Shown one piece after another: positions 5,261 through 64,000 of a DNA stretch of 64,000 bases. Both the position numbers and the translations under genes were made by a program. The stretch spans positions 1 to 64,000 of the forward strand of contig JAJDAD010000054.1 in assembly GCA_029262055.1 (NCBI GenBank), read 5' to 3'. Origin of the DNA: Candidatus Zhuqueibacterota bacterium (GTDB lineage: Bacteria > Zhuqueibacterota > Zhuqueibacteria > Oceanimicrobiales > Oceanimicrobiaceae). Numbering within the stretch: the stretch's first letter is position 1; every line of letters starts with the position of its first letter. Under the pieces are notes generated by a model, which saw only the letters and a list, made by a program, of their open reading frames with translations, made no database searches and was not told where the DNA came from.

Positions 5261-5319
5261 AGCCTGCCACCCATTCCGGTTAAAAACTGCCACCCATTCC
5301 GGACGAAGGCTGCCACTTT
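5228..5319 (+). repeat. Four tandem 23-bp IS21 end repeats
   Basis: Four head-to-tail copies of a 23-bp unit (5228, 5251, 5274, 5297), each starting TTCCGG and containing CTGCCAC, make up the left end. Such multiple end repeats are the expected IstA binding sites. A fifth direct-orientation copy lies at 7693-7715, overlapping the istB stop codon. Inverted copies form the right end between about 7752 and 7800. Confidence 0.85.
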
Positions 5320-5406
5320 AGTTCTCCGGTTTCATTTTTTCTAAGAACATTTCTCGACTGTTTGTTAGTATGCCTCCGTTGACAGGGTATCAAACGGAGG
5401 ACCACT

Positions 5407-6972
5407 ATGCCAATGCGGAGGATCTCGATGAACAAGGTTCGAGAAATCATACGGTTGAAACAACAATGCCATCTGAGCGAACGTGCCATATCCAGAGTTC
5501 TGAGCCTGTCACGTCCGGTGATATCACAGTATCTGCGGGATATCGCCCATACAGGGCTCAGCTATGACGAGATACAGCTTATGGACGACGACGCACTCAC
5601 CGACCTTCTGACGGGTAAGGCCAGGAAACCCGAACGATACATCCAGTTGACCAAACAGTTTGAGCACTTTGCCCGGGAACTGAAACGGACCGGCGTCACC
5701 CTGCAACGGTTGTGGCATGAATACCGGACCGAACATCCGAATGGGTACAGCTATACCCAGTTCTGTTATCATTTCCAGCTCTGGCGCAGTACGTCTGAGC
5801 TGACCATGCATCTGGACCACAAAGCAGGCGATAAAATGTTCGCCGACTTCACCGGTAAAAAGCTCTCATTCATCGACCGGCAAACCGGTGAAGTCAAAGA
5901 GACCGAAGTCTTCGTGGCCATCCTACCGGCCAGCCAACTCACCTATGTCGAAGCGGTTGAAAGTCAGAAAAAACATGACTGGCTCCAGGTCAACCAAAAC
6001 GCCTTCCATTACATCGGTGGTGTCCCAAAGGCTGTGGTGCCAGATAATCTCAAATCAGCGGTCCATAAACCGAACTTCTATGAGCCGGAGATTAACCCCG
6101 AATATGCGGACTTCGCACGGCATTACCAGACCGTCGTCTTACCGGCTCGCCCGAATCGTGCCAGGGACAAGGCCATGGTCGAAGGCGCGGTCAGAATCGT
6201 CTATGCCTGGATATTTGCCGCTCTCAGAGATCGCATCTTCTACAGCCTCAAAGAACTGAACACCGCCATCGGTGAACAACTCGAGACCTACAATGCCAAA
6301 CCCATGCAAAAGCTGAAAATCAGTCGAAGAGAACTCTTTGAACAAACCGAAAAGGATGAACTGAAACCGCTGCCGCATGAAAAATACACCCGCAAACAAT
6401 GCAAGCAGCTTAAGGTTCAATTCAACTATCATATCCAGCTCAGAGAGGACATGCATTACTACAGTGTTCCCTATCGATATCGGGGCAAACAGGTCCTGGT
6501 TATCTATACCGACGCCGTCGTCGAAATGTTCTGTAACAACCAACGGATTGCCTTACATAAACGTGACCGGACGCCAAACCACTACAGCACCGTCAAAGAA
6601 CATATGCCGTCGCATCATAAAGCCTACAGCGAATGGAGCCCGCAAAGACTCATCAACTGGGCGGAGGATATCGGTGAACATGTCAAGGCTGTCATCGAAT
6701 ATATTCTGGCGCATCGCAAACACCCGGAACAAGGTTACCGGGTTTGCCTAGGCATTCTGAATCTGACCCAGAAATATGACAAAGAACGACTCAACAAAGC
6801 CTGCCAAAAAGCGGTCTATTATCAAAACTACTCACTCAAAGGCATTGAAAACATCCTTAGAAACCGATTGGAAGACTATCAGCAGGAAAGCTTTCAGCTC
6901 CTACCTGACCACAACAATATTCGAGGAAACCAATACTATCAACAAGTAAAGGAAATCTCTCATGACCAATGA
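5407..6972 (+). CDS. istA: IS21-family transposase IstA
   Basis: A 521-residue DDE transposase that cuts and joins the element ends. An N-terminal helix-turn-helix region (about residues 14-45, ERAISRVLSLSRPVISQYL) should bind the end repeats. The rve-type catalytic core shows D147 (FADF), D213 (PDNLKSAV) and E259 (DKAMVEGAV). A C-terminal region of about 200 residues is typical of IstA. GGAGG at 5396-5400 precedes the chosen ATG; in-frame ATGs at 5413 and 5428 are alternatives. The stop codon overlaps the start of istB by 11 bases, consistent with coupled translation. Confidence 0.95.
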   Translation: MPMRRISMNKVREIIRLKQQCHLSERAISRVLSLSRPVISQYLRDIAHTGLSYDEIQLMDDDALTDLLTGKARKPERYIQLTKQFEHFARELKRTGVTLQRLWHEYRTEHPNGYSYTQFCYHFQLWRSTSELTMHLDHKAGDKMFADFTGKKLSFIDRQTGEVKETEVFVAILPASQLTYVEAVESQKKHDWLQVNQNAFHYIGGVPKAVVPDNLKSAVHKPNFYEPEINPEYADFARHYQTVVLPARPNRARDKAMVEGAVRIVYAWIFAALRDRIFYSLKELNTAIGEQLETYNAKPMQKLKISRRELFEQTEKDELKPLPHEKYTRKQCKQLKVQFNYHIQLREDMHYYSVPYRYRGKQVLVIYTDAVVEMFCNNQRIALHKRDRTPNHYSTVKEHMPSHHKAYSEWSPQRLINWAEDIGEHVKAVIEYILAHRKHPEQGYRVCLGILNLTQKYDKERLNKACQKAVYYQNYSLKGIENILRNRLEDYQQESFQLLPDHNNIRGNQYYQQVKEISHDQ

Positions 6973-7702
6973 AGCCACCTTCGAGAAAATGAAATTGATG
7001 AAGCTCCACGGCATGCTCCATGCCTTTCGCACTACCATGGAAACCGGCGGTCATCGCGATTTTACCCCCGATGAACTGGTGGCCCATCTCGTGGATGCGG
7101 AATACGAAGACCGTTACAACCGCAAACTCGCAAGACTTCTGAAAGTCGCTAACTTTCGGCTTAAAGCCACACTTGAGCAGATCGACTTCAAACCGACCCG
7201 TGCGCTCGATAAAAACCTCATCACCCGGCTTTCGACCTGCGATTGGATAACCAAGACTGAAAATGTCCTTCTCACCGGTCCCACCGGCATCGGCAAAAGC
7301 TACATCGCTTGTGCGCTCGGACACCAGGCGGCTCTGGGCAGCTTGAGAGTTCTTTACTTCAACTGCGTCAAGCTCTTTTCAAAACTCAAATATGCCAAAG
7401 CGGACGGTACTTATGTCAAAGAACTCAAGAAAATACAGAACCAGAACCTCATCATTCTCGATGATTTTGGCTTGCATCCCATAGACCAGCAAAGTAAATT
7501 AATCCTGTTGGAACTCCTGGAAGACCGATACGGCGACAAATCAACCATTATCACCTCACAACTACCGGTTAAAAGCTGGTATGATATCATCGATAACCCG
7601 ACGATCGCCGATGCGATCCTCGACAGAATCGTTCACAATGCGTATCTGATCGAAATGGATGGAGACTCCATGAGAAAAAATCCAAAGAACCGTTCCGGCT
7701 GA
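6962..7702 (+). CDS. istB: IS21-family helper ATPase IstB
   Basis: A 246-residue AAA+ ATPase that assembles on DNA and directs IstA to the target. The Walker A motif GPTGIGKS lies at about residues 106-113 and the Walker B motif LIILDDFG at about 163-170. The N-terminal helical region (MKLHGMLHAFRTTME) is the usual IstB_N domain. Length is normal for the family. It starts inside the end of istA (11-base overlap). Its stop codon falls inside one copy of the 23-bp IS end repeat at 7693-7715. Confidence 0.95.
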   Translation: MTNEATFEKMKLMKLHGMLHAFRTTMETGGHRDFTPDELVAHLVDAEYEDRYNRKLARLLKVANFRLKATLEQIDFKPTRALDKNLITRLSTCDWITKTENVLLTGPTGIGKSYIACALGHQAALGSLRVLYFNCVKLFSKLKYAKADGTYVKELKKIQNQNLIILDDFGLHPIDQQSKLILLELLEDRYGDKSTIITSQLPVKSWYDIIDNPTIADAILDRIVHNAYLIEMDGDSMRKNPKNRSG

Positions 7703-7751
7703 AAACTGCCACTTAGGTCTTTTAAATAACCAGAAATGTTCAAAGAAAAAA

Positions 7752-7801
7752 AGTGGTAAACTTTCATCCGGAATGGGTGGCAGGTTTCACCGGAATACAC
7801 A
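7752..7801 (-). repeat. IS21 right terminal inverted repeat region
   Basis: Read on the minus strand from 7801, this reproduces the left end: TGTGTATTCCGG, then an AACCTGCCACCCATTCCGG-type unit, then a second unit starting TTCCGGATGAAAG. It marks the right boundary of the element. Confidence 0.85.
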
Positions 7802-7846
7802 TCCGCGCATGCGGAGCAGGTTGTACTGAAACAGGCCAGTAACTAG
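7802..7846 (+). pseudogene. Displaced original 3' end of the first DUF3857 gene, with right target duplication
   Basis: Bases 7802-7807 repeat TCCGCG. If the IS and one duplication copy are removed, the frame of the upstream gene continues into HAEQVVLKQASN and a TAG at 7844-7846, 10 bases before the next ATG. This tail resembles the end of the paralogue (RAQIVLVRQ), which supports the reconstruction. The fragment has no start of its own. Confidence 0.85.
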
Positions 7847-7856
7847 AGAGGGCGTC

Positions 7857-9800
7857 ATGAGAAGAATGCAAGCGACCGTCCTCCTCATACTTGTCTGTGT
7901 GTTTGCCGGATTCGATTGCGGCTATTTTGGTCCTGCTTTCGCAAATGCCGGCGGGGACGAGAGTCTGGATATCAAGCGCATTGTGCCGGGTCTGCTGCTG
8001 GACGCGGACGCTGTGATTCGTCTCAACCTGCACAAGTTCGTCGTGGAAAACACCGCCCGGGCGCGCGAGTCCGTTCGTCTCGTCATCACGATTATGAATG
8101 AGAAAGGGCGGGATTTCGGGCAACACGTTATCCCGTACGATAAATTCCGTACGGTCAAGAAGGTGCAGGGCTTGATTCGTAACCCGGACGGATCGGTTTA
8201 TCGCAAACTGAAGCAGGACGAAATCGCAGACTACAGCGCGACAGCGGCCTACAGTCTTTACGATGACACTCGTATCCGGGTCGTGGAGTTGTATCACGAT
8301 CATTATCCCTACACCATCGAACTGGAATATGAGCTGGAACGTAAAGGCCTAATCAATTGGACAACCTGGTATCCGCAGCGAAACGGCCAGCCGTTGGAAA
8401 AGGGCAAGTTCGAACTGGTGCTGCCCCTGGCAATGGATTTTAGGTTTCAGCCTAGAAACCTGCAAGCCGAACCCAAGATCACCCAGATGGGCGACAAGAA
8501 GTCATATGTTTGGGAGGTCGTCAATCTCACGGGGCTGAGCTACGAGCCCTATTCGCCGCCGTGGCCCGAGCGCGTGCCAACGCTGATTGTTGCGCCAAAC
8601 AAGTTCGAGATCGAGGGTCACGCCGGCGACATGTCCAGCTGGGGTGCGTTTGCAGCCTGGTACTACCGACTGGGCGAAGGGCGTGATGCTCTGCCCCCTG
8701 CGGTCCGGCAGGAAGTGCGCGAAATCACTGCCGGTGTGCAAAGTCCGGTAGAGAGAGCAAGGAAGTTGTATGAGTATTTGCAGAAAAACACCAGGTACAC
8801 GAGCATCCAGCTCGGTATCGGTGGCTGGCAGCCGTTCGACGCGACGTACGTTTTCGAAAAAGGCTACGGAGACTGCAAAGCGCTGTCCAATTACATGCTC
8901 GCTATCCTGAAGGCTGCGGACGTGCCGGCCTTTCCGGCGCTCACGCGTCTCGGCACAAATGAAACAGACGTGCTCGCTGACTTTCCGAGCAACCAGTTTA
9001 ACCACGTGATCTTGTTCGTGCCGACGCCAGAGGATACGGTCTGGCTGGAGTGCACGAGCCAGACCATGCCGTTTGCACACATCGGCGCGGCCAATGAAGA
9101 TCGCAACGTTCTGGTGGTAACGCCGGATAGCGGAAAAATCGTCCGCACGCCGGCAAGCCTGTTTCATCGCAATCGCCAGGTGCGGCGTGCGGTGGTAACG
9201 ATCGACGCGCGTGGCAATGGGCACGCGCAAGTAACCACGACTTTTACCGGCAACCAGCAGGATCGCGTACGGCAGGCGTTGGCGCAAAGCTCCGGCAGAG
9301 ACCGTGACGCATGGCTGCGCAACAGAATCGATATCCCGCGATTCCGCCTGCTGAAGGTAGATTTTTCGGATGTGGATCGGCAGGCGACCTCGATTTCCCT
9401 GCCCATGGAGCTGGAATTGCCACGCTATGCTTCCGTCACCGGCAGCCGGCTATTCCTGGGGCCGAACCTGATGGAGCGCTGGCAACATGTGCCGGACGAG
9501 GTCGAGGAGCGAACGCAACCCGTGCATTTCGCTTACACCTATGAGGATGTTGATTCGGTGGCGTTTCATCTGCCGGCCGGCTACAAAGTCGAAGCCATGC
9601 CCGAGGACGTGCGCCTGGTAACGGATTTTGGTCTGTACGAAGCAACCATAAAGATGCCGGATGCGAACTCGCTCGTTTACCGGCGGGCGTTGCGAAAAAC
9701 AAAAGACCGGCTACCACCTGAAGAATACGCCGCCTACCGTGAATTCGTCAGCAAAATAGTGAAAGCGGATCGTGCCCAGATCGTGCTGGTGAGGCAGTGA
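7857..9800 (+). CDS. DUF3857 and transglutaminase-like domain secreted protein
   Basis: A 647-residue exported protein. A signal peptide (residues 1-30, ending near FANAGG) is followed by DUF3857 (about 35-230), a transglutaminase-like domain (about 260-420) and a beta-rich C-terminal region. The putative catalytic Cys is in GYGDCKALS and the His in FNHVILFV; the acid position reads WLECTS (Glu or neighbouring Asp). Unlike the upstream paralogue, the Cys and His are kept. Family members are envelope proteins of unknown substrate. Originally the two genes were an operon with a 10-base gap; the IS21 now separates them, so expression may depend on read-through from the IS or on a new promoter. 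Confidence 0.85.
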   Translation: MRRMQATVLLILVCVFAGFDCGYFGPAFANAGGDESLDIKRIVPGLLLDADAVIRLNLHKFVVENTARARESVRLVITIMNEKGRDFGQHVIPYDKFRTVKKVQGLIRNPDGSVYRKLKQDEIADYSATAAYSLYDDTRIRVVELYHDHYPYTIELEYELERKGLINWTTWYPQRNGQPLEKGKFELVLPLAMDFRFQPRNLQAEPKITQMGDKKSYVWEVVNLTGLSYEPYSPPWPERVPTLIVAPNKFEIEGHAGDMSSWGAFAAWYYRLGEGRDALPPAVRQEVREITAGVQSPVERARKLYEYLQKNTRYTSIQLGIGGWQPFDATYVFEKGYGDCKALSNYMLAILKAADVPAFPALTRLGTNETDVLADFPSNQFNHVILFVPTPEDTVWLECTSQTMPFAHIGAANEDRNVLVVTPDSGKIVRTPASLFHRNRQVRRAVVTIDARGNGHAQVTTTFTGNQQDRVRQALAQSSGRDRDAWLRNRIDIPRFRLLKVDFSDVDRQATSISLPMELELPRYASVTGSRLFLGPNLMERWQHVPDEVEERTQPVHFAYTYEDVDSVAFHLPAGYKVEAMPEDVRLVTDFGLYEATIKMPDANSLVYRRALRKTKDRLPPEEYAAYREFVSKIVKADRAQIVLVRQ

Positions 9801-51946: not shown

Positions 51947-52117
51947 GATTTCCTTTTTTGTTTGAATAGAATTCGGTAAAGATAATGTTTTGCGTGAAAA
52001 AAACAAGCCATTGTCCGGGAACAGCTCTTTCTGGTGGCTATTTTGCCGTAAAACAGCAATTTCGACAGACAGATATTAAGACAATTTCACAAATCATACC
52101 AATTGGTTATTTTTTTC

Positions 52118-52146
52118 TTGACAAAGTAGTGTCCATTTCATAAATT
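52118..52146 (+). promoter_or_regulatory. Sigma-70-type promoter before the M23 peptidase gene
   Basis: TTGACA (52118-52123), a 17-base spacer and TAAATT (52141-52146). The palindrome ACCAATTGGT (52098-52107) lies just upstream and might be a regulator site. The transcript would have a leader of about 170 bases before the ATG at 52323. Confidence 0.7.
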
Positions 52147-52322
52147 TGTCCCATTCTGATTGCTTCAGATGCCTACCGCATTGAGGAAACGTTTAAACTA
52201 AAATCTTTCGCTTCTTAGAGTTGCTGAAAAGCTTTTTTGGCACTGTACTTTATTCTTTCGAGAGATACTTCTGGTTTTCGTTGATTTCGTTCCGCGCTAT
52301 TTGGAGAGAAGGACTGACTTTC

Positions 52323-53237
52323 ATGCATGACAAGAAGGTTAAGATTATATATTTTTCAGTTGGTGAGTCGGGTTCTAATGAGATAGAGTTGACTTGGCGG
52401 AAATTCTCTTGGATTTTGTCGAGTGTGTTTGTGCTGCTGTTGTTCCTGGTTGGGACTTCTCTTGCCCTCTTTACGGACTTCTACCAAAATCTGCATATAT
52501 CCTCATTATCAAAGACCAATTCACAACTGCAGGCCCAGCTCGTTGACATAGGCGGCAAGATCGAAACGATTACGGGTAGGGTTGACAATCTGGAAGAAGA
52601 TGACGACCACCTTCGGATTATCGCTGACTTACCTAAGATCGACGAGGACACGCGGACTGTTGGCGTTGGAGGCGCTCTGGACGCAGCGACATACGTTTCC
52701 TCAAGCGAGCTGGTTGAGCAGATTTATGACTATCAGAGCACTCTTGCACAAATGGAGCGCCGCCTGGAGCTCAGCGAGTACAGCCGCATAGAGGTTCAAA
52801 AGAAACTTGAAGAAAACAAGAACCTCATGAAGCACATGCCATCCATCCGGCCACTGACGGGGGGGCGGATCAGCGACAGATTCGGATTCCGGCTCCATCC
52901 GGTAATCGATAAAATACGTCGCCACCCGGGAGTCGACATAGCTGCAGAGCGTGGCACAGAGGTGTTTGCCACTGCCGCAGGTACTGTTGAGAAGGTCGTA
53001 ACAAAATATCAAAGAAACAAAAGCTGGGGAAAGTACGTGCTCATAAACCACGGTTTTGGGCATAAGACACTTTATGGGCATTTGTCCAAAGTGCTTGTTC
53101 GGCAGGGTCAAAAAATTGACAGATGGAACCCTGTCGGGCTTGTTGGGGCTACGGGTTTGGCGACGGGACCTCATTTGCACTATGAGGTGCGCAAGGACGG
53201 CACTCCTCTCGATCCGCAAACATACATTCTCAATTAG
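52323..53237 (+). CDS. M23 family metallopeptidase (LytM-like), membrane-anchored
   Basis: About 304 residues; the ATG at 52323 (MHDKKVKIIYFSV) is typical for this protein type in FCB bacteria. A single membrane span (about residues 28-50) is followed by a coiled coil (about 55-180) and the C-terminal peptidase domain. The zinc ligands are H (FRLHPVIDKIRRHPGVDIAA, with HPGVD) and the HLH of GPHLHYEV, with the second catalytic His in LINHGFGHKTLYGHL. It cleaves or regulates cleavage of peptidoglycan cross-links. A strong terminator follows. Confidence 0.9.
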   Translation: MHDKKVKIIYFSVGESGSNEIELTWRKFSWILSSVFVLLLFLVGTSLALFTDFYQNLHISSLSKTNSQLQAQLVDIGGKIETITGRVDNLEEDDDHLRIIADLPKIDEDTRTVGVGGALDAATYVSSSELVEQIYDYQSTLAQMERRLELSEYSRIEVQKKLEENKNLMKHMPSIRPLTGGRISDRFGFRLHPVIDKIRRHPGVDIAAERGTEVFATAAGTVEKVVTKYQRNKSWGKYVLINHGFGHKTLYGHLSKVLVRQGQKIDRWNPVGLVGATGLATGPHLHYEVRKDGTPLDPQTYILN

Positions 53238-53264
53238 TCTCAACTTCTAAATCTCGATAAAGAT

Positions 53265-53298
53265 GCCTTGGTTGCTACAAACAACCAAGGCGGTTTTC
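53265..53298 (+). terminator. Intrinsic terminator after the M23 gene
   Basis: GCCTTGGTTG (53265-53274), a 7-base loop and CAACCAAGGC (53282-53291) form a perfect 10-bp stem, followed by GGTTTTCATTTT. Confidence 0.85.
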
Positions 53299-53412
53299 AT
53301 TTTGGCAGTATGGTTCCCGGGCCGGGGCTATTCATGACGACATGATTCCGCGCTTTAATCAACGAATTGAATTCTGAAGCAGGCCGCATCCCATGCGGAG
53401 ATTTAGAGTCAG

Positions 53413-55167
53413 ATGATCGTGGACGTGAAATTATACGTGGGCCGGGTGGCTTTTTCCCTGCTCTTCTTAGTATCGGTGAGTTTCGGGGCCTGCGGCGTGA
53501 AGGCACAAGTCGTGCTTTCCGAAGTGATGTTTGACGCCAGCGGCAACGAGTCGCACGATGAGTTTATTGAGATAGCTAATCTGTCAACCAGCGACCCCGC
53601 AGATTTGAGCGGCTGGCAGGTGAGCGACGGCTCCGGCAGCGATAAACTGCAGGCTGTTGATGCCGGCCTGATACTTATGCCGGGACAATTCGGCATCATA
53701 CTCGACCAATCCTATTTTGATAATTCCACTTTGTATGACTCTCGTATTCCTCCGGAGAGCTTGATCCTCACAATCGATAATGGGACGTTCGGCAGCCGCG
53801 GTCTGTCCAATTCAACCGCTGAGACCATCGCACTCCTCAATGCCGATGGGCTGGTATTGTCTGAGTACACCTACTCTCTTGGCAATCCACCCGGATTCTC
53901 AGATGAAAAGATTGATCTAAACGGCCCTAATGTACCAGGCAACTGGGCTGATAGCAAGATCGCGTTAGGAACGCCGGGCGCCAGGAATAGTGTTTCGCCA
54001 CTGTCCTTTGACCTTGCTGTTTCGTCGGAGGACTTTCGGTTTAGTCCGCAGCGGGTGGCTGCGGGCGAACAAGTCGAGATCAGTTTGCAAGTCCGAAACA
54101 TCGGCCTCGCCTCTGTAACCGCGTTCCGGGTGCAACCGTTCCTGGATGCAGATAGGGACTCCTCTCTGAGTGCTGGCGAAGAAATAGGCGCCGGATTTGA
54201 CTTTGCGGGTGTGCTTGCAGCGGGGGATTCCGCGACCTTCTCATTCCATTTTGCCGGTGCGACTTCAGGTTCATTTGTGATCGGACTGATCGTGACCTAC
54301 GCTCCTGACCAGAACCCGAGTAACAATCTGGCGGTACGGGCGTTCGCGATTGGGGCCACTCCATTGACTGTCAGAATAAATGAAATCATGTATTCCCCGG
54401 TCAGCGGTCAGTCCGAGTGGGTCGAACTGGCCAATCGTTCAACTGCAACGCTTGGCCTGCAAGGGTGGGCGATTTCCGATGACAATGCCACCACGCGGGC
54501 CGTTATCAGCGCGGCGGTAACCCTCGGGCCGGATCAGTTTGTCGTTCTCGCTAAGGACTCATCGCTGGCGCTGAGTTTGGGTTTGTCGCAGGCTGATGTG
54601 GTTGTTCTCCCTGACTTCCCGGCCTTAAACAACGACTCCGACGCCGCTGTCCTGTACGACCTGACCGATGCAACCATCGACAGAGTTGACTACCGCAGTG
54701 ATTGGGGTGGAGACACTGGTGTTTCTCTGGAGAAAGTCAATCCCGATCTACCCGCCAATGATGCCGCAAACTGGAGTTCCTCGGTAAGTGGTGCGGGTAG
54801 TACGGCGGCCCGGCGAAACAGTATTTTTGTTGAGTCGCTGCCCGGTGAGGCCAGTCTCTCGCTCGCGCCTAATCCCTTTTCGCCTGACGGCGACGGGGTT
54901 GATGATTTTGTTTTGATCAACTACAGTCTGCCTGTAACGACGGCAGCAGTGAATGTCAAAATCTACGATCTGCGCGGACGCCTGATTCGTTTTTTGCTGA
55001 ACAACCAAGCTTCAGGTTCGCAAAGCACGGTGGTTTGGGATGGAAAGAACGAGACTGGCGAACTTGCGCGAATGGGGATCTATGTTGTCTTTCTACAAGC
55101 CCTCAATGCAGAAGCCGGCTTGCTGGAAACTGAGAAGACAACCGTCGTGCTGGCCGGAAAGCTCTAA
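53413..55167 (+). CDS. Secreted lamin-tail-domain protein with FlgD-like C-terminus
   Basis: A 584-residue exported protein. The signal peptide ends near GVKAQ. Two lamin-tail (LTD) domains (about 30-195, starting VVLSEVMFDASG; about 315-460, starting VRINEIMYSPVSG) flank a CARDB/Ig-like domain (about 200-310). The C-terminus (LAPNPFSPDGDGVDDFVLIN, VKIYDLRGRLIRFLL, GIYVVFLQ) is a FlgD-like/T9SS-like tail, as in the subtilase at 31221-35420. It probably stays at the cell surface or in the matrix. A GGAG lies about a dozen bases before the ATG. Confidence 0.82.
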   Translation: MIVDVKLYVGRVAFSLLFLVSVSFGACGVKAQVVLSEVMFDASGNESHDEFIEIANLSTSDPADLSGWQVSDGSGSDKLQAVDAGLILMPGQFGIILDQSYFDNSTLYDSRIPPESLILTIDNGTFGSRGLSNSTAETIALLNADGLVLSEYTYSLGNPPGFSDEKIDLNGPNVPGNWADSKIALGTPGARNSVSPLSFDLAVSSEDFRFSPQRVAAGEQVEISLQVRNIGLASVTAFRVQPFLDADRDSSLSAGEEIGAGFDFAGVLAAGDSATFSFHFAGATSGSFVIGLIVTYAPDQNPSNNLAVRAFAIGATPLTVRINEIMYSPVSGQSEWVELANRSTATLGLQGWAISDDNATTRAVISAAVTLGPDQFVVLAKDSSLALSLGLSQADVVVLPDFPALNNDSDAAVLYDLTDATIDRVDYRSDWGGDTGVSLEKVNPDLPANDAANWSSSVSGAGSTAARRNSIFVESLPGEASLSLAPNPFSPDGDGVDDFVLINYSLPVTTAAVNVKIYDLRGRLIRFLLNNQASGSQSTVVWDGKNETGELARMGIYVVFLQALNAEAGLLETEKTTVVLAGKL

Positions 55168-55342
55168 GAAGATGATGATTTTTCGACTTTGTATGGATAG
55201 AATCTATGCGTTAACCTGCCCGCCCGTGCTCCGCTGCCTTCCTCAAATTTGTGCCTGCCCTTGAAGAAGCGTTTCTCCCACGCGTAGTTTTTCATTGATT
55301 TTGTATTGTGGCGCCTGTATATTTGTTACTTTTGCATTTCAG

Positions 55343-56032
55343 ATGTCAGTGACTGAAAACATAAAGAATGTCCGTCAGAGACTTGAGCGCGTCTGTACTC
55401 AGGCAGGCCGGAATCCCTCTGAAATCGAGCTGATTGCAGTCAGCAAGACGGTTGGCGTCGCGCAGATTGCTGAGGCATCGGCGTGCGGCATAAAGGTTGT
55501 CGGTGAGAATAGAGTTCAGGAGGCGTGGCAAAAGTTCCAAACTACGAAAGTCGATGTCAAGTGGCACATGGTTGGCCATTTGCAGAGCAACAAAGTGCGC
55601 CGTGTGCTGCAGTTTTGTGAGATGATTCAGTCGGTCGATAGCTTGAGCCTGGCTGAAGAGATCAACCGGCAGGCTTGTAAACTCGATCGCCGGATGGCAG
55701 TTTTGATTCAGGTCAACTGCTCTGGTGAGGCGAGCAAGTTCGGATTTGCTCCAAGCGAAGCTATCGATGCAGTAGAGAGGATCTCCGAACTGGATCACGT
55801 TACCGTCGAGGGATTGATGACTATTGGAGCTTACTCAAAGCAAACGTCCGAGGTGCGGGCATCGTTTCGTAAGCTGCGTGACCTGCGAGAGAAGATAGAA
55901 GAAAAGGCTTTCCCCGGTGTTAGAATGCGGGAGCTGTCCATGGGGATGACCAATGATTTTGAAATCGCAGTTGAAGAAGGTTCGACAATGCTCAGGATCG
56001 GCAGGTCCATTTTTGGCGAACGACTAAATTGA
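55343..56032 (+). CDS. PLP homeostasis protein (YggS/PLPBP/YlmE family)
   Basis: About 229 residues from the ATG at 55343; the longer frame adds an unlikely hydrophobic leader. PLP-binding Lys35 lies in ELIAVSKTVG. Other family motifs are VGENRVQEAWQK, WHMVGHLQSNKVR, LIQVNCSGEASKFGF and the phosphate-binding LSMGMTNDFEIAVEEGSTMLRIG. It carries and balances pyridoxal phosphate in the cytosol. It heads a run of genes resembling the ylmE-ylmG-divIVA region of Firmicutes; the next gene follows after 10 bases. Confidence 0.93.
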   Translation: MSVTENIKNVRQRLERVCTQAGRNPSEIELIAVSKTVGVAQIAEASACGIKVVGENRVQEAWQKFQTTKVDVKWHMVGHLQSNKVRRVLQFCEMIQSVDSLSLAEEINRQACKLDRRMAVLIQVNCSGEASKFGFAPSEAIDAVERISELDHVTVEGLMTIGAYSKQTSEVRASFRKLRDLREKIEEKAFPGVRMRELSMGMTNDFEIAVEEGSTMLRIGRSIFGERLN

Positions 56033-56042
56033 GGACTGAAGC

Positions 56043-56273
56043 ATGGGGCTTCTAAGAACACTTATTGACCTTTACATTTGGATTGTGATCATCAGGGTGC
56101 TGCTGTCATGGTTTGATGTCGATCAGAGAAATCAAATCGTCCGTTTTCTGATCGATGCCACCGAACCCGTGTTGAGTAAAATCCGTTCTGTTGTACCGGA
56201 TCTTGGCGGGCTCGATTTGTCGCCACTGGTCCTGATTCTGATTCTAAGTCTTGTTCGCAATATGCTGCACTAG
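56043..56273 (+). CDS. YggT (YlmG) family membrane protein
   Basis: A 76-residue protein with two hydrophobic spans (about 5-20 and 55-74). Between them is the family core VLLSWFDVDQRNQIVRFLID and TEPVLSKIRSVVPDLGG. YggT proteins are linked to envelope integrity, osmotic tolerance and, in plastids, nucleoid/division organisation. It lies directly after the PLPBP gene. Confidence 0.88.
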   Translation: MGLLRTLIDLYIWIVIIRVLLSWFDVDQRNQIVRFLIDATEPVLSKIRSVVPDLGGLDLSPLVLILILSLVRNMLH

Positions 56274-56318
56274 TTGACACTTGATAGATAATAAACGTTT
56301 TTGCGGGAGGTGTTTACT

Positions 56319-57062
56319 TTGAAGCTCACGCCATTAGACATAAAACGACAAGAATTCAATAAAAGCCTGCGCGGCTATGATCCGGTAGAAGTTGATGCAT
56401 TTCTGGACATGCTGGCTGATGAACTGGAGCAGTTGCTTCGTGACCAAAAGCAGTTCAAGGATGAAGCGAGCGAGTTGCGGATCCAGCTTCACGGATATCA
56501 GGAGGTCGAGGCAACGCTTAAGGATACTTTGGTTAACGCGCAGGAGTCCATTAAGGAATCCCGGGAAAATTCGAACCGGGAAGCGGAACTGATGATTCAC
56601 GATGCTGAACTGCGAGCAGAAAAAATTGTTGAGAATGCGAAGCTGCGACTTGCGGAAATGAAGAATGAGCTTGTCGTGGTAAAGGCACAGAAAGATTCGT
56701 TTGCCCGGCGCTTGCGTCACCTGCTGGAGTCACAGTTAGAGTTGATTGAAGTGCTTGGACTCGACGACCTTGGTTTTGAGCAGTACGATGAAAAAGAAAG
56801 CAAGCCTGCGAAAGAAAAACCTATTTCTGTTTTCAGACAGGAAAAGATCGAGTTTGAAGGGATAGAGGACGTCCTCGGGGACGAACCGTCTGCTCAGGAT
56901 GAGCAAGCGGACCAAGTCCAAACTGTCGGTGACGCCGCTCAGGATGATGATCCACATAGCATAAACTGGGGCATGCGCGAGCAGACCGAAATGCCCGCCA
57001 AAGATGCGTCGCGCGACGATGATGAGTCGCAATCACGTATGTCTGACCGCCTGATTCTCTAA
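56319..57062 (+). CDS. DivIVA-domain protein
   Basis: About 247 residues. The TTG at 56319 is chosen because GGGAGG (56305-56310) lies 8 bases upstream and the product begins (M)KLTPLDIKRQEFNKSLRGYD, the standard DivIVA start. The N-terminal lipid-binding domain includes DPVEVDAFLDMLADELE. A long coiled coil runs to about residue 150 and an acidic, disordered tail follows. DivIVA binds curved membrane at poles and septa and recruits division or growth proteins. It is best known from Gram-positives; here it follows YggT by about 45 bases. Confidence 0.88.
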   Translation: MKLTPLDIKRQEFNKSLRGYDPVEVDAFLDMLADELEQLLRDQKQFKDEASELRIQLHGYQEVEATLKDTLVNAQESIKESRENSNREAELMIHDAELRAEKIVENAKLRLAEMKNELVVVKAQKDSFARRLRHLLESQLELIEVLGLDDLGFEQYDEKESKPAKEKPISVFRQEKIEFEGIEDVLGDEPSAQDEQADQVQTVGDAAQDDDPHSINWGMREQTEMPAKDASRDDDESQSRMSDRLIL

Positions 57063-57097
57063 TTCTTGCCGCGGCTATTCTAATTCGAGATAAATTT

Positions 57098-57922
57098 GTG
57101 CAAAATCTAAGCAAGCAGATTGATGACGCCCGCTCCTTTTTGGCGGAAAAAACGATGTTGCAGCCGAGAGTCGGGATCATTCTTGGGACCGGACTCGGAG
57201 CCCTGGCAAATGAGATCGAAGCCGAAGCCACGATTTCTTATGAGGAGATCCCACATTTCCCTCTATCCACGGTTGAAAGTCATGCCGGCAGACTTATTTT
57301 TGGGAAAATCGGGACGCAGCCGGTCATGGCCATGCAGGGCCGGTTTCATTTTTACGAAGGCTACTCCATGCAGCAGTTGACCTTTCCCGTCAGGGTCATG
57401 AAGAGTATGGGGACTGACACCCTTATGGTTTCAAATGCATGTGGCGGGATGAACCCGCAGTATTCGGCGGGCGACATAATGATAATTTCCGACCACATCA
57501 ATTTACTGGGTGGCAACCCGCTTATTGGTCGTAATGATGACGCACTGGGTCCGCGGTTCCCGGATATGTCGGAGCCGTATTGCCAGGAGCTTATCGCGGT
57601 CGCTGAGAAAATCGCTCTCGAAGAGAAGATAAAAGTACAGAAGGGTGTTTATGTAGCTGTGTCTGGTCCCTGTCTTGAGACACGTGCAGAGTATCGTTTC
57701 CTGCGAGGCATCGGTGCGGATGTCGTTGGTATGTCAACCATCCCGGAGGTCATTGTGGCCGTGCACAGCTCTATGAGAGTTCTCGGTCTTTCGGTGGTGA
57801 CGGATGCGTGCTTCCCCGATGCGCTTGCACCCGTGGACATCGCGGAAATTCTCAAAGTTGCCGGTGAAGCCGAACCCAAGCTGACGTTACTCATGAAGAG
57901 AGTTGTAGAGCAACTGGATTAG
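57098..57922 (+). CDS. Purine-nucleoside phosphorylase
   Basis: A 274-residue enzyme starting at GTG 57098. It splits purine nucleosides with phosphate to base and ribose-1-phosphate. The trimeric PNP family motifs are LGTGLGALANEIE, HAGRLIFG, MQGRFHFYEGYSMQQ, VSNACGGMNPQYSAGDIMII, SGPCLETRAEYRFLR and GMSTIPEVIVAVH with VVTDACFPDAL. It precedes ileS by 2 bases, an insertion relative to the Firmicute gene order. Confidence 0.93.
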   Translation: MQNLSKQIDDARSFLAEKTMLQPRVGIILGTGLGALANEIEAEATISYEEIPHFPLSTVESHAGRLIFGKIGTQPVMAMQGRFHFYEGYSMQQLTFPVRVMKSMGTDTLMVSNACGGMNPQYSAGDIMIISDHINLLGGNPLIGRNDDALGPRFPDMSEPYCQELIAVAEKIALEEKIKVQKGVYVAVSGPCLETRAEYRFLRGIGADVVGMSTIPEVIVAVHSSMRVLGLSVVTDACFPDALAPVDIAEILKVAGEAEPKLTLLMKRVVEQLD

Positions 57923-57924
57923 AT

Positions 57925-60900
57925 ATGTACAGAGAATTAGGTTCACAACTCAATTTTGCCGAGCTGGAGAAGGAGATTCTGGCCTACTGGCAAAATGCAG
58001 GGATCTTCGAAAAAAGCATCGAGTCCCGGCCGGCGGATAAGCCCTTCATCTTTTACGAAGGACCGCCGACAGCGAACGGCATGCCCGGAATACACCATGT
58101 TATTTCGCGTGCAGTCAAGGACCTGGTTTGCCGTGTCAAGACCATGCAGGGCTACCGGGTTGAGCGCAAGGCCGGATGGGATACGCACGGCCTGCCGGTG
58201 GAAATCGCTGTCGAGAAGGAGCTTGGTTTTACCAACAAGGAGCAGATCGATGCGTACGGCGTCGATAAGTTTAACCAAAAATGCCGCGAAAGTGTCTGGA
58301 AGTATAAGAAGGAGTGGGATGAATTAACCGAGCGGATTGGTTTTTGGGTGGATCTGGAGAATCCGTACGTCACATACGAGAACGACTACATCGAGTCCGT
58401 CTGGTGGATCCTCAGTGAGTTCTGGAAGAAAGAGCTGCTCTACCAGGGATACAAGATCACGCCTTACTGCCCTCGCTGTGGCACACCGCTTTCCAGTCAC
58501 GAAGTATCGCTGGGCTATCAGGATGTCGAAGACCCATCAGTCTACGTTCGCATGCCGCTACGGGACGAACCGGACACTTCCTTTCTGGTTTGGACCACCA
58601 CGCCGTGGACGTTGATTTCAAACGTAGCCCTGGCACTGAATTCCGACGTAAAGTACGTAAAAGTAAAGACTGGGGACGAGCACTTGATCCTGGCCGAGTC
58701 CCGGCTTTCTGTTTTGACCGATGACTACGAGGTGGTTCAGGAGTACGTTGGGCGGGACCTGCTAGGTATTGACTATGTGCCGCTTTTCACATTTTGTCAC
58801 AGCGACAAGAAGATACACTTTACAGTCGCCGGTGACTTTGTTTCCACAGAGGACGGTTCGGGTATCGTGCACTTGGCGCCCGCCTTTGGGGAAGATGATT
58901 TTAAGGCCGGCCAGAAGTATGACCTGCCGGTTTTGCAGCCGGTGGATAAGACAGGTTGTTTTACACCTGAGGTCACGCCCTACAGCGGTCTTTTTGTTAA
59001 AGACGCCGACCCCACAATTGTTGCCGACCTGGAAGAGTCCGGGAGACTTTATAAACACGAAAAATATCTGCATAGCTATCCGCATTGCTGGCGCTGTAGT
59101 TCACCGTTGCTGTATTACGCCAAGCAGTCGTGGTTTGTGCGCACCACTTCCCTGAAGGATAGATTCATTGAACTTAATAACGCCATCGACTGGTATCCAA
59201 AGGAAGTTGGAGAAGGGCGCTTTGGCGAGTGGCTGGCCAATAATGTCGACTGGTCGTTGTCACGTGATCGCTTTTGGGGTACGCCGCTGCCTATCTGGAC
59301 CTGCACTGAGTGTGGTGACAGTCATTGTGTCGGCAGCGTTGCTGAACTGAAGGAACGTTCCGGAGTTGCCGATGTCGAGGACTTGCACAAACCGCATATC
59401 GACCGCATTGAGCTTGTGTGTGAAGAATGTAGCGGCAAAATGCGGCGCGTGCCGGAGGTAATCGATGTTTGGTTTGACTCGGGAAGCATGCCGATCGCGC
59501 AATGGCACTATCCGTTTGAAAATAAAGAGAAATTCGAGAATTCTTTTCCTGCTGACTTTATTTCTGAAGGGGTCGATCAGACCCGGGGCTGGTTCTACTC
59601 TCTGCTCGCGATCGCCGGAATTCTGTTTGACCAACCTTGCTACAAGTCCTGTGTATCTGTTGACTTAATCCTCGACAAAAACGGCAAGAAGATGTCAAAG
59701 TCCAAGGGGAATGCGGTCGCGCCGGCATCTATCCTGGAAGAATATGGCGCGGACTCCTTACGCTGGTATTTGTTGACCGTGAGCCCGCCCTGGGTGCCGA
59801 CACGTTTCGATCCGGAAGGTGTCAAAGAGGTCTTGCGCAAGTTCTTCGGGACACTGACAAACGTCTATTCGTTTTTTGCCATCTACGCCAACGTAGATGG
59901 CTTCAAGTACGATAAAGCTCAAGTTGCATTCGAAGACCGGGCTGAAATTGATCGCTGGCTGCTGAGTTCGCTGAATGCTCTGGTGGGGAAAGTGAATGAC
60001 CATCTTGGACGATACGATCTGACCAAAGCCGCGCGCGCGATATCCAGTTTTGTGGTCGACGAGCTGTCCAACTGGTATGTGCGGCGCTGCCGTCGGCGTT
60101 TTTGGAAGTCGGAGATGGGCGAGGACAAGCTCGCGGCGTATGAGACTTTGTACGAGGTTTTGCTCACGGTAACCAAGCTGATGGCTCCGTACGCCCCGTT
60201 TATTTCTGACGCCCTTTACCTTAATTTAGCCAACGGACGGGACCGGGGCGAAAGCGTACACCTGAGCACATTCCCGCAAACGAGCGATAAGCAGCATCAA
60301 TTCATGCAGCCGGAATTACTGGCCCGGATGGATCTGGTCCGCCGCGTTGTCTTCCTCGGACGAACCCTGCGCAACGAGTCGGGGGTTAAGGTCCGACAAC
60401 CATTACAAAGGGTGATTGTTGTTTCAAATGATGCCGGCCAGCAGGAAAGCATGGAGGCGATGAGCGGCCTGATTCTGGAGGAGTTGAACATTAAGGAAAT
60501 AGATTTCGCGGCCGATAAGGATGAGTTAGTCGCGAAGCGAGCCGTCCCGAATTTTAAGAAACTTGGTCCGCGGTTTGGCAAAAAAGTCAATTCGGTTGCC
60601 GGCCGGATTCGTGAGTTAACGCCGGTTGAAGTAGATGTCCTGGAGGCTGAAGGGGAATTCCAGATTCAGGACAACGGCGATTCGTATTCGGTGCACTTGG
60701 AGGATATTGACATTGTTTCCGAAAGTTCTGCAGGGCTGGTTGTGCACAGTGAGGGCGACCTCACTGTCGGACTCGACATAAGTATCAGCGAGGAGCTGCA
60801 GCTTGAAGGGCTAGCACGCGAGTTTGTGAACCGTGTCCAAAATATGAGGAAGAATTCAGGATTTGCTGTTGTTGATCGGATAAATATTTACTATTCTGGG

Positions 60901-61059
60901 TCCGATGATATCTTCAAAGCTGTAACCAGAGAAGCCGACTATGTCAGCAGCGAAACGCTGGCTGAGTCGATTTCTACTTCACTCAAGCCGGATCTTGCCG
61001 TCGAGGAGTGGCGCATCAATGGTTCCACGCTGACTATTGCGATCGAGAAGGTTGCCTAG
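57925..61059 (+). CDS. ileS: Isoleucyl-tRNA synthetase, type 2 (IleRS2), with altered GXHH motif
   Basis: A 1044-residue class I synthetase. The first signature motif reads GIHH at residues 55-58 (NGMPGIHHVIS), that is GXHH instead of HXGH. KMSKS is intact at residues 589-593. The editing domain has TTTPWTLISNVALAL and GSGIVHLAPAFGEDDF with the conserved Asp. WDTHGLPVEI and overall length mark the eukaryote-like type 2. Cys pairs CPRC, CTEC and CEEC lie in the zinc-knuckle-like inserts. Type 2 IleRS is intrinsically less sensitive to mupirocin. The swapped motif has been linked in the literature, as I recall, to hyper-resistance. No other ileS is visible here. Confidence 0.95.
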   Translation: MYRELGSQLNFAELEKEILAYWQNAGIFEKSIESRPADKPFIFYEGPPTANGMPGIHHVISRAVKDLVCRVKTMQGYRVERKAGWDTHGLPVEIAVEKELGFTNKEQIDAYGVDKFNQKCRESVWKYKKEWDELTERIGFWVDLENPYVTYENDYIESVWWILSEFWKKELLYQGYKITPYCPRCGTPLSSHEVSLGYQDVEDPSVYVRMPLRDEPDTSFLVWTTTPWTLISNVALALNSDVKYVKVKTGDEHLILAESRLSVLTDDYEVVQEYVGRDLLGIDYVPLFTFCHSDKKIHFTVAGDFVSTEDGSGIVHLAPAFGEDDFKAGQKYDLPVLQPVDKTGCFTPEVTPYSGLFVKDADPTIVADLEESGRLYKHEKYLHSYPHCWRCSSPLLYYAKQSWFVRTTSLKDRFIELNNAIDWYPKEVGEGRFGEWLANNVDWSLSRDRFWGTPLPIWTCTECGDSHCVGSVAELKERSGVADVEDLHKPHIDRIELVCEECSGKMRRVPEVIDVWFDSGSMPIAQWHYPFENKEKFENSFPADFISEGVDQTRGWFYSLLAIAGILFDQPCYKSCVSVDLILDKNGKKMSKSKGNAVAPASILEEYGADSLRWYLLTVSPPWVPTRFDPEGVKEVLRKFFGTLTNVYSFFAIYANVDGFKYDKAQVAFEDRAEIDRWLLSSLNALVGKVNDHLGRYDLTKAARAISSFVVDELSNWYVRRCRRRFWKSEMGEDKLAAYETLYEVLLTVTKLMAPYAPFISDALYLNLANGRDRGESVHLSTFPQTSDKQHQFMQPELLARMDLVRRVVFLGRTLRNESGVKVRQPLQRVIVVSNDAGQQESMEAMSGLILEELNIKEIDFAADKDELVAKRAVPNFKKLGPRFGKKVNSVAGRIRELTPVEVDVLEAEGEFQIQDNGDSYSVHLEDIDIVSESSAGLVVHSEGDLTVGLDISISEELQLEGLAREFVNRVQNMRKNSGFAVVDRINIYYSGSDDIFKAVTREADYVSSETLAESISTSLKPDLAVEEWRINGSTLTIAIEKVA

Positions 61060-61114
61060 CGCAGCCTCTGCAGAACGTTTGGAGTAAATCATGTTGGTTG
61101 AACGGAGGTAAAGG

Positions 61115-61516
61115 ATGACAAAGAAAGAGTTGGCCGAATTCAAGGAACTCCTGATTGGAAAGCGAAACACATTGCTGAAGGACTTGGGCCAATTTAAGGA
61201 TCGTGAAGTTGCGTCCAAACTGAAAGATTCTTCAGCAGAAAACTCTGCCTATTCTTTTCACATGGCGGATGTTGGTACCGACAACCAGGAGCGCGAAAAA
61301 GCATATTTCTTTGCAACTCGAGAGGGGAAGTACGTATCGTTGATTGAAGAGGCCTTGCAGCGAGTCGAGAAGGGGACTTACGGCATTTGTATGGATTGTG
61401 TCGAAGAGAAGCAGGACTTGTGTCCGACCTGTCCAGAGATTCCCCGGGAACGCCTGTTGGCAGTGCCGACAGCCACTCGCTGCGTTCCCTGCAAAGAGCG
61501 CGCAGAAAAGTCGTAA
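61115..61516 (+). CDS. TraR/DksA family zinc-finger protein
   Basis: A 133-residue protein. The N-terminal coiled coil (KKELAEFKELLIGKRNTLLK) is followed by DVGTDNQEREKAYFFATREGK and the C4 zinc finger CMDC...CVPC (GTYGICMDCVEE and TRCVPCKER). It is similar to DksA-like or YlyA/YteA proteins that bind the RNA polymerase secondary channel and modulate transcription. AACGGAGG lies before the ATG. It sits between ileS and lspA, exactly where Firmicutes have ylyA. Confidence 0.88.
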   Translation: MTKKELAEFKELLIGKRNTLLKDLGQFKDREVASKLKDSSAENSAYSFHMADVGTDNQEREKAYFFATREGKYVSLIEEALQRVEKGTYGICMDCVEEKQDLCPTCPEIPRERLLAVPTATRCVPCKERAEKS

Positions 61517-61546
61517 TCGCACTGCCTGACAGCAGACGCTCTTAGC

Positions 61547-62029
61547 TTGCGAGTCCTAATCTTATCCCTGGGTGTCATTCTGCTAGACCAGGTGACGAAG
61601 CTTACGGTTCGCTTTTCCTTCGCGTACGGCATACCTCACAATATCGTCGGGGACTTCATCAGGCTGACCTATATTGAAAATCCCGGCATGGCCTTCGGAA
61701 TCCGTTTTGCTAATCAGACATTCTTTGTCATATTTGCGTCCCTGGCAACCGTTATTGTTTTCGTCTATATTGTTCGGGCTCAAAATGAGCGGTTGCTGTT
61801 ACGCGCGGCGCTTGCTCTCATCTTTGGCGGCGCGGTTGGCAACCTTATCGACCGCTTGCTGTATGGCAAAGTTGTCGATTTTATTGATGTCGGAATTGGC
61901 GCTACCAGGTGGCCGATATTTAATCTGGCAGATAGCGCCGTCACAATCGGGATGTGCATTATTGTGGTCTTCGCCCTGTTTGTCAGGGGACCGGGTCAGG
62001 GCGAGACGGATGCTGAGAGCACGGCCTGA
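61547..62029 (+). CDS. lspA: Lipoprotein signal peptidase (signal peptidase II)
   Basis: A 160-residue membrane aspartic protease starting at TTG 61547. Four spans are seen. The catalytic motifs are FGGAVGNLIDRLLYGKVVDF (Asp of NxxDR) and WPIFNLADSAVTIG (Asp of FNxAD). The N-terminal LDQVTKLTVRFSF and NPGMAFGI also fit. It removes signal peptides from prolipoproteins, including the lipobox proteins in this window. Confidence 0.92.
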   Translation: MRVLILSLGVILLDQVTKLTVRFSFAYGIPHNIVGDFIRLTYIENPGMAFGIRFANQTFFVIFASLATVIVFVYIVRAQNERLLLRAALALIFGGAVGNLIDRLLYGKVVDFIDVGIGATRWPIFNLADSAVTIGMCIIVVFALFVRGPGQGETDAESTA

Positions 62030-62069
62030 TATGGCCTTACTCCTGCTTCCGTGTTAAGGATTGAGAAGC

Positions 62070-63062
62070 TTGGAGCACCAGGAGCACATTTTTTCGGTCG
62101 TCGTACCCCCGAACCAGACGCGTGAACGCCTGGATAAGTTTCTGGCGCGGTTCATCGGATCTGTGTCCCGCGCGCGTCTGCAAAAGGCGATTGCTGAAGA
62201 CCTGGTGTTGGTGGACGGTACTCCCGCAAAAGCCAGTCACCAGGTTGCGCCGCAACAGCAGATTGTCGTATGCATTCCAAAGCCGCAACCGGTTGACATC
62301 CATCCTGAAAACATACCTCTCGACATAGTCTGCGAAGATGAACATCTTCTGGTGGTCAACAAGGCTGCGGGGATGGTCGTGCATCCGGCGTTTGCAAACT
62401 ATACCGGCACACTGGTAAATGCGTTAATGCACCATTGCGGGAACCTCTCGTCGGTTGGCGGCAGGCAGAGGCCGGGCATTGTTCATCGCATCGACAAGGA
62501 CACATCCGGTCTCTTGGTTGTTGCCAAAAATGATGTCACGCATCAGGGTCTGTCCGCACAGTTTAGAGCGAAAAGTGCAGAGAGACTGTATGAAGCCATC
62601 TGCTGGCACAAGTTTGACAAGAAGAGTGGCAGAGTGGAGAACTACATTGCCCGGAGTCCGAAAGACCGGAAACGCATGACAGTCCAGAAAACCGGTAAGA
62701 TTGCAGCAACCAACTATCAGGTCGTTGAGAGTTTTGATGTTTTTTCCTTGCTGCAACTTCGCCTCGAGACCGGCCGGACCCACCAGATCCGAGTCCATCT
62801 TTCCTACCTTGGCCACCCCATCCTGGGCGACGGTGAGTATGGCGGTCGCAACCGGCAACTGGGAGGATTGAGCAAGAGCCATTTCCAATTCGCTGCCGTT
62901 ATTCTGGAGGCTATGCCCCGTCAAGCACTACACGCGAAGGTGCTTGGCTTTGTGCATCCGGTTACAAAAGAAAAGCTTCGGTTTGAAACAAACCTGCCGG
63001 AAGACATGAGCCTGGTGCTGGAAAAGTTACGCCTTCCAACCCGTGATTCTTTGCCAATTTAA
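62070..63062 (+). CDS. RluA/RluD-family 23S rRNA pseudouridine synthase
   Basis: About 330 residues. The start is probably TTG 62070, about 9 bases after AAGGA; TTG 62061 is the alternative. An S4 RNA-binding domain (about 10-60, RERLDKFLARFIGSVSRARL) precedes the catalytic domain, which has the Asp in GIVHRIDKDTSGLLVVAKN, then LETGRTHQIRVHLSYLGHPI and the final GFVHPVTKEKLRFE. It most likely makes Psi1911/1915/1917 in helix 69 (RluD-like), but RluA/C-type specificity is not excluded. It closes the ileS-lspA run, as ylyB does in Firmicutes. Confidence 0.9.
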   Translation: MEHQEHIFSVVVPPNQTRERLDKFLARFIGSVSRARLQKAIAEDLVLVDGTPAKASHQVAPQQQIVVCIPKPQPVDIHPENIPLDIVCEDEHLLVVNKAAGMVVHPAFANYTGTLVNALMHHCGNLSSVGGRQRPGIVHRIDKDTSGLLVVAKNDVTHQGLSAQFRAKSAERLYEAICWHKFDKKSGRVENYIARSPKDRKRMTVQKTGKIAATNYQVVESFDVFSLLQLRLETGRTHQIRVHLSYLGHPILGDGEYGGRNRQLGGLSKSHFQFAAVILEAMPRQALHAKVLGFVHPVTKEKLRFETNLPEDMSLVLEKLRLPTRDSLPI

Positions 63063-63517
63063 TCCCGCGCAGTCTTGCGAAAAACCACTTGTTTGTGTGC
63101 CCGGCGTGGCCGGCGGCTCAGGTCATTGGAGCCGCGCATAAACCAAAAACGGCGGAACTGAGTTCCGCCGCTTCGGGAAAGGAGGGGTGGATGGAGATTC
63201 TTTTATGTGAAACAAGGGTCGCAACCCTTGTTATTCGCAGGAGTTTGCTCGATTGATAACAATTTTCATGCCAGTGGCAGGAAAATTGCTTCATGGCGCT
63301 ATGGCAGGATGTCGGAAGTCATGTAGAAACAACGTGATGGTCCTGTTGCTGCGGTCCCGTTATTTTTCGTAAGAATTCAGTCTGAATCGCCTGAACTGTT
63401 TCAGCGTGAAACATAGGTTGGCCGGGTGAATCAATGAATTAAGGCGGGACAAGCGCTGCAATTTAGCTTGATTTTGGCGGCAGTCATCAATAGAATGTAA
63501 AAACAACCGGAGGAACC
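63063..63517. other. Intergenic region with two strong hairpins
   Basis: No gene was recognised. CGGCGGAAC (63150-63158) pairs with GTTCCGCCG (63162-63170). On the minus strand this stem is followed by TTTTT, so it resembles a minus-strand terminator. AACAAGGGT (63211-63219) pairs with ACCCTTGTT (63224-63232) without a T-run. Either may end the plus-strand rluD transcript. Confidence 0.45.
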
Positions 63518-63748
63518 GTGTCGGATATTTTGTGTTCAAAATGTAATGAAACCAAGCCGGGGCTGACAGAGGCTCCTTTTCCCAACGAGATGGGGCAAGC
63601 AGTACTTGCAAAAACCTGTGAAGATTGTTGGCAGGCGTGGGTCGGGCAGCAGTTGATGCTCATGAATGAATATCGTTTGGATCCAATGGATGATGAACAT
63701 AGCAGTTTCCTGGATCGCGAGATGATCAAGTTCTTGTGCCTGCACTAG
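63518..63748 (+). CDS. Fe(2+)-trafficking (YggX-like) protein with extra Cys pairs
   Basis: A 76-residue protein starting at GTG 63518, after GGAGGA. It follows the YggX pattern (PFPNEMGQAVLAKTC, W at CWQAWVGQQLMLMNEYRLDP, LDREMIKFLCLH). Family members protect iron-sulfur proteins and handle labile iron. Unlike the enterobacterial form, which has a single conserved Cys, it has CSKC near the N-terminus and CEDC in the middle, which could bind zinc or iron. It is followed after about 25 bases by an aldehyde dehydrogenase gene. Confidence 0.8.
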   Translation: MSDILCSKCNETKPGLTEAPFPNEMGQAVLAKTCEDCWQAWVGQQLMLMNEYRLDPMDDEHSSFLDREMIKFLCLH

Positions 63749-63773
63749 TCCCGAAAGCAAATATGTAGATCAA

Positions 63774-64000
63774 ATGACTGCTCACATCAACTCCAGAACC
63801 CCTCCCGTTGCCGCTGATTCCGGTAAATCGGTCGCGGGCTTTACCCCCACCAGCCCGGAGGACTTGCCCGAGATCATAGGGTCTGCGGAGAATGCCCTGC
63901 AGGAGTGGTCCGCCTTGTCCCTGGCTGACCGCAAGGCCTGCTTGCGCAGGGCTTATCACGAGTTCCACAATGCCAAAGATGAAGTGGCGGAACTTGTTTC
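63774..64000 (+). CDS. Aldehyde dehydrogenase family protein, N-terminal part (cut by window edge)
   Basis: The ATG at 63774 opens a frame that runs off the window (75 codons seen). The segment AENALQEWSALSLADRKACL and the following helix LRRAYHEFHNAKDEVAELV are the normal N-terminal helix pair of NAD(P)-dependent aldehyde dehydrogenases. The catalytic Cys/Glu part lies outside, so the substrate cannot be named. It may be co-transcribed with the YggX-like gene. Confidence 0.7.
   Translation, partial: MTAHINSRTPPVAADSGKSVAGFTPTSPEDLPEIIGSAENALQEWSALSLADRKACLRRAYHEFHNAKDEVAELV

Follow-up and report, generated by a model that had tools for sequence, protein, structure and literature searches.

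The ileS gene analysed here very probably encodes the sole housekeeping isoleucyl-tRNA synthetase (IleRS) of its organism, an enzyme that belongs to the GxHH branch of bacterial type 2 IleRS (IleRS2) and that is predicted to be hyper-resistant to mupirocin. It is carried by the window, i.e. the whole stretch of 64,000 nucleotides that was analysed (contig JAJDAD010000054.1 of a Candidatus Zhuqueibacterota bacterium). The HxGH signature of class I synthetases is a near-invariant motif. As far as can be judged from sequence, what this analysis adds to the known picture is that GxHH is fixed across a whole phylum. The occurrence of an essential single-copy enzyme devoid of HxGH across a lineage indicates that a rearranged active site can be tolerated over long evolutionary times.

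A full-length type 2 IleRS with a swapped signature motif

The ileS gene (57925..61059, + strand) is a full-length ORF encoding a protein of 1044 amino acids. In a profile search, this protein scores 994.6 bits against TIGR00392 (curated cut-off 621.4), which identifies it as an isoleucyl-tRNA synthetase. PF00133, Anticodon_1 and a C-terminal PF19302 (DUF5915) domain covering residues 849-1043 were also detected. Since DUF5915 is found in the Thermus, Deinobacterium and Corynebacterium control genomes and is absent from those of E. coli and B. subtilis, its presence is in keeping with a type 2 enzyme. Compared with solved chains, the window protein scores 1010-1026 bits with the IleRS2 of P. 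megaterium and at most 392 bits with any IleRS1, the top-scoring PDB chain by sequence being 8c8w (1026 bits), a GVHH mutant of P. megaterium IleRS2. Furthermore, the closest PDB folds to its AlphaFold model (mean pLDDT 88, pTM 0.79) are four P. megaterium IleRS2 structures, including 8c9d, 8c8v and 8c8w, with TM scores of 0.85-0.86. An earlier note on this DNA had assigned the enzyme to type 2 and had proposed an alignment with IleRS1 and IleRS2 references; the scores, the nearest structures and the C-terminal domain all bear this assignment out.

The translation reads GIHH at residues 55-58, in place of HxGH, as the earlier note had described for a segment (58081-58110) that includes the four codons concerned (58087..58098, + strand; GGA ATA CAC CAT, i.e. 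GGAATACACCAT). In the alignment, GIHH falls exactly over the HVGH of the P. megaterium (8c8v) and T. thermophilus (1ile) IleRS2, and the motif columns line up across all 147 IleRS that cover the signature region. In the AlphaFold model, it sits at its usual place, the N-terminal tip of helix 56-74 (alpha-1). A normal HxGH elsewhere in the Rossmann fold, which would have spoken against a swap, was looked for by alignment to the IleRS2 chains, and the N-terminal Rossmann region holds none.

The remainder of the enzyme is intact, as had been claimed. The second class I motif is a canonical KMSKS (residues 589-593; 59689..59703, + strand), of which K589, M590 and K592 do not vary and S591 hardly varies among major-clade relatives. 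The editing-domain signature VWTTTPWTL (residues 222-230; 58588..58614, + strand) includes positions W223-T226, P227, W228 and T229, which are invariant in alignment A1. WDTHGLPVE is also kept, together with the editing signatures WTTTPWTL and GSGIVHLAPAFGEDDF.

Apart from the oddity of the motif, nothing favours the idea that GIHH arose from HIGH by decay or by a sequencing error, the latter having been named as a counter-argument in the earlier note. The changes from His to Gly and from Gly to His need two substitutions each, the ORF is full-length, there is no other ileS in the genome, and the motif was found independently in 77 genomes of the phylum, with 0 HxGH. Chance, sequencing error and decay can hence be excluded, their probability being practically nil.

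A single ileS gene in a conserved operon

A profile search of the 5.7 Mb assembly, which is 97%-complete, retrieved only one ileS above the TIGR00392 cut-off. The absence of a second copy, first noticed within the window, is thereby extended to the genome. A second ileS elsewhere was rejected: the remaining matches are far under the cut-off, and the next three are a ValRS, a LeuRS and a MetRS by sequence. These display normal signatures (HMGH, HVGH and HIGH, respectively), and the swap is therefore specific to IleRS. The earlier suggestion that this organism may depend on the swapped enzyme is supported by the single ileS; its emphasis on this particular organism does not stand, the swap being phylum-wide and also common in other phyla.

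The genes around ileS are arranged in the order yggS-divIVA-PNP-ileS-dksA-lspA-rluD, all on the + strand. Upstream lie the conserved neighbours encoding a YggS/PLPBP-type PLP-binding protein (55295..56032, PF01168) and DivIVA (56301..57062, PF05103), both placed by synteny, followed directly before ileS by a gene of the purine nucleoside phosphorylase family (57098..57922, PF01048), also syntenic. Downstream are a gene for a DksA/TraR-like C4 zinc-finger protein (61115..61516), named from its ORF and sequence features as well as from an annotated record of Riemerella in which the genes follow the same order, lspA encoding signal peptidase II (61547..62029, PF01252) and a gene for an RluD-type pseudouridine synthase (62061..63062, PF00849 and S4). 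The yggS-rluD order recurs in Ignavibacteria-type loci, completely in four of them (L039, L040, L042 and L043) and partly in three (L037, L038 and L041). An RNA regulator such as a T-box was ruled out at the operon, the region 52000-64000 being without any Rfam match. From these sequence features, we infer that the window IleRS would be an ordinary housekeeping enzyme, competent for aminoacylation.

Relation to characterized G/AxHH enzymes and predicted mupirocin resistance

The motif class was described as G/AxHH in IleRS2 by Brkic et al. 2023 (PMC10485003), in a sample of 379 IleRS. The earlier note had referred to published work on swapped IleRS2 enzymes showing extreme mupirocin resistance; this work is real and matches exactly. 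In the IleRS2 that were tested, the swapped motif raises the Ki for mupirocin up to 1000-fold (PMC10485003). Natural enzymes with measurements are those of D. radiodurans (ALHH) and S. griseus. For instance, the D. radiodurans IleRS2 has a Ki of 6.6 mM, which drops 823-fold upon reversion to HVGH, and the introduction of GVHH into the T. thermophilus and P. megaterium IleRS2 increases Ki about 200- to 430-fold (PMC10485003). In these enzymes, the effect was ascribed to a shifted helix tip that lets the third His replace the first, the same His clashing with mupirocin (PMC10485003). The ability of IleRS2 to serve as the sole housekeeping enzyme was already stated in the same study.

In all features accessible to sequence analysis, the window IleRS agrees with this description. 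By analogy with the published enzymes, His57 would take over the catalytic role of the first His of the motif (PMC10485003). This bulky residue would clash with mupirocin and a Ki in the mM range can be predicted; hyper-resistance is therefore to be expected. Like the S. griseus and D. radiodurans IleRS2, the window enzyme is a housekeeping type 2 IleRS in which motif positions 1 and 3 are exchanged, but unlike them it carries Asp580, and its resistance is a prediction. It shares its whole-length fold with the wild-type P. megaterium IleRS2 (8c8u/8c8v; TM 0.85, 43-44% identity). However, that enzyme has HVGH and is encoded by a second gene beside IleRS1, whereas the window GIHH enzyme is the only copy. 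The 8c8w GVHH mutant carries the same swap, but as an engineered change, whereas GIHH is natural. Among the inspected PDB entries for IleRS, 8c8w was the sole chain with GxHH.

The MupA and MupB enzymes encoded by plasmids of staphylococci are also of IleRS2 type and are 42% identical to the window IleRS. However, staphylococcal mupA (L195) has a canonical HTGH and is an acquired second copy, in contrast to the GIHH of the window gene. The window protein scores 957.5 and 945.7 bits against the NCBIfam exception profiles for MupA and MupB, far from their cut-offs of 1900. An acquired MupA/MupB-like resistance gene is excluded by this low score, by the single copy and by the conserved operon.

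GxHH as a phylum-wide and probably old variant

We surveyed 82 genomes of the phylum with DNA patterns for each form of the IleRS motif. The pattern EGPPTANGxPGxHH was matched in 65 of them and DGPITANNxMGVHH, which corresponds to a second IleRS clade, in 12, one genome (G043) matching both. One further GxHH genome (G045) carries DGPPTANGRPGIHH (DGPP..PGIHH), bringing the total to 77 of the 82 genomes. The HxGH pattern was matched in none of the 82 genomes. The motif was not recovered in five genomes, two of which (G062 and G080) have ileS fragments lacking the motif and three of which (G037, G066 and G081) have no strong ileS match.

The 147 non-redundant IleRS covering the region comprise 110 major-clade GxHH, 13 MGVHH and 24 HxGH sequences, and among them GxHH is common in phyla besides that of the window. 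A FastTree tree of these 147 IleRS, from which the motif region was left out, places the window enzyme in a 90-row branch in which every row is GxHH and which takes in Ignavibacteria, Cloacimonadota, Rhodothermia and others. The fewest motif changes required are four on this tree and five on a second tree obtained with IQ-TREE on a thinned set, the two trees disagreeing at deep forks that are weakly supported. In the major clade, x is I, V, T, L or S. Polar residues at this position (GTHH in L055 and L197, GSHH in L079) are outside the Ile/Val/Leu/Met/Tyr list given in the Fig. 1 legend of PMC10485003.

Since the trait is phylum-wide, vertical descent of an ancient active-site variant is the better explanation for GxHH, rather than an adaptation of this one organism. 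Alternatively, mupirocin or a comparable natural product that inhibits IleRS could have selected the swap in the lineage, where it would be kept for the resistance that it confers. The up to 1000-fold rise in Ki is in line with such selection, as is a plasmid-borne ileS of Rhodococcus opacus which encodes GTHH and lies among NRPS-type genes, as a self-resistance copy would. However, the trait is fixed both in the phylum and in the wider tree branch described above, with none of the patchy distribution that selection by an antibiotic should produce, and a domain search of the window ileS operon revealed no genes for inhibitor biosynthesis. Selection by an inhibitor thus appears rather unlikely, and fixation across the phylum speaks for inheritance from an old ancestor rather than for recent selection by an antibiotic. 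Under old inheritance, the presence of GxHH would not be evidence that an organism meets mupirocin, and its phylum-wide occurrence predicts intrinsic mupirocin resistance throughout the phylum.

The R. opacus gene (L197:4971-8126, plasmid NZ_CP095404.2) adjoins genes encoding condensation-domain and phosphopantetheine-binding proteins and looks like a self-resistance copy against an IleRS-targeting compound.

Residue 580 next to the presumed adenine-stacking position

Another feature of the window enzyme is Asp580 (59662..59664, + strand), which is located in the strand before KMSKS, beside the presumed adenine-stacking position 581; by alignment, positions 580 and 581 match Gly581 and His582 of P. 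megaterium. Since this residue differs from that of the structurally studied enzymes, details of ATP binding may also differ. An acidic residue at position 580 might orient or charge the displaced His57, a variation on the published arrangement confined to this part of the GxHH branch. In line with such a role, G occupies position 580 in 23 of the 24 HxGH IleRS versus E or D in 78 of the 109 major-clade GxHH enzymes, and one of these two acidic residues is present in nearly all major-clade IleRS of the window's phylum. However, 31 GxHH enzymes keep G580, one HxGH enzyme (L083) has E580, and the rows are related, so that the correlation between this residue and the motif may be phylogenetic. 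A role as acidic partner of His57 is accordingly doubtful. Because the rows are related and exceptions exist, we consider the co-variation as a lead only.

A divergent IleRS with alterations in both class I motifs

Four families of the same class (f4, f9, f11 and f13) harbor an IleRS about 36% identical to that of the window, with MGVHH and EMHKS as signature motifs. Such divergent enzymes are encoded at L117-L126, L128 and L186, the KMSKS region being outside the L128 fragment, and they occur in 12 genomes (G010, G015, G020, G022, G025, G028, G031, G034, G040, G043, G046 and G079). Their TIGR00392 scores of 746-776 bits (767 for L125) are above the cut-off of 621.4. Like the window IleRS, the divergent clade (L117-L126 and L186) has the GxHH swap and is the sole ileS in most carriers; unlike it, KMSKS is replaced by EMHKS, WDTHGLPVE by FDCQGLWVE and W131 by Q.

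With the exception of G043, the divergent gene is the only strong ileS match in the carrier genomes, which include assemblies of 95-100% completeness (G010, G015 and G025). In three carriers (G020, G015 and G031; loci L212, L213 and L215), divIVA-PNP-dksA-lspA-rluD is kept without ileS, and the spacing between the PNP and dksA matches in these ileS-less operons is 44-543 bases. The divergent ileS of G015, G031 and G025 (L200-L202) is located elsewhere, without the yggS-rluD neighbours. It looks as if one GxHH IleRS2 had been displaced by another. On balance, it is fairly probable that within this class the GxHH IleRS2 was replaced by the MGVHH/EMHKS one while the operon was otherwise kept, leaving the altered enzyme as the sole IleRS. 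This would mean that a class I synthetase is able to sustain a whole cell with neither motif in its canonical form. The existence of a sole IleRS with both motifs altered in neighbouring lineages makes the drift of a class I active site directly testable.

A literature search on the motif string EMHKS returned no matching paper. The divergent clade might be identical to the minor one of Brkic et al. Both GxHH clades are also represented side by side in a Chloroflexi bacterium (L078, JAAYXE010000048.1), in which two ileS genes, one per clade, are arranged head to tail (2373-5885 and 6001-9171). The divergent ileS of this pair encodes PMHKS in place of KMSKS.
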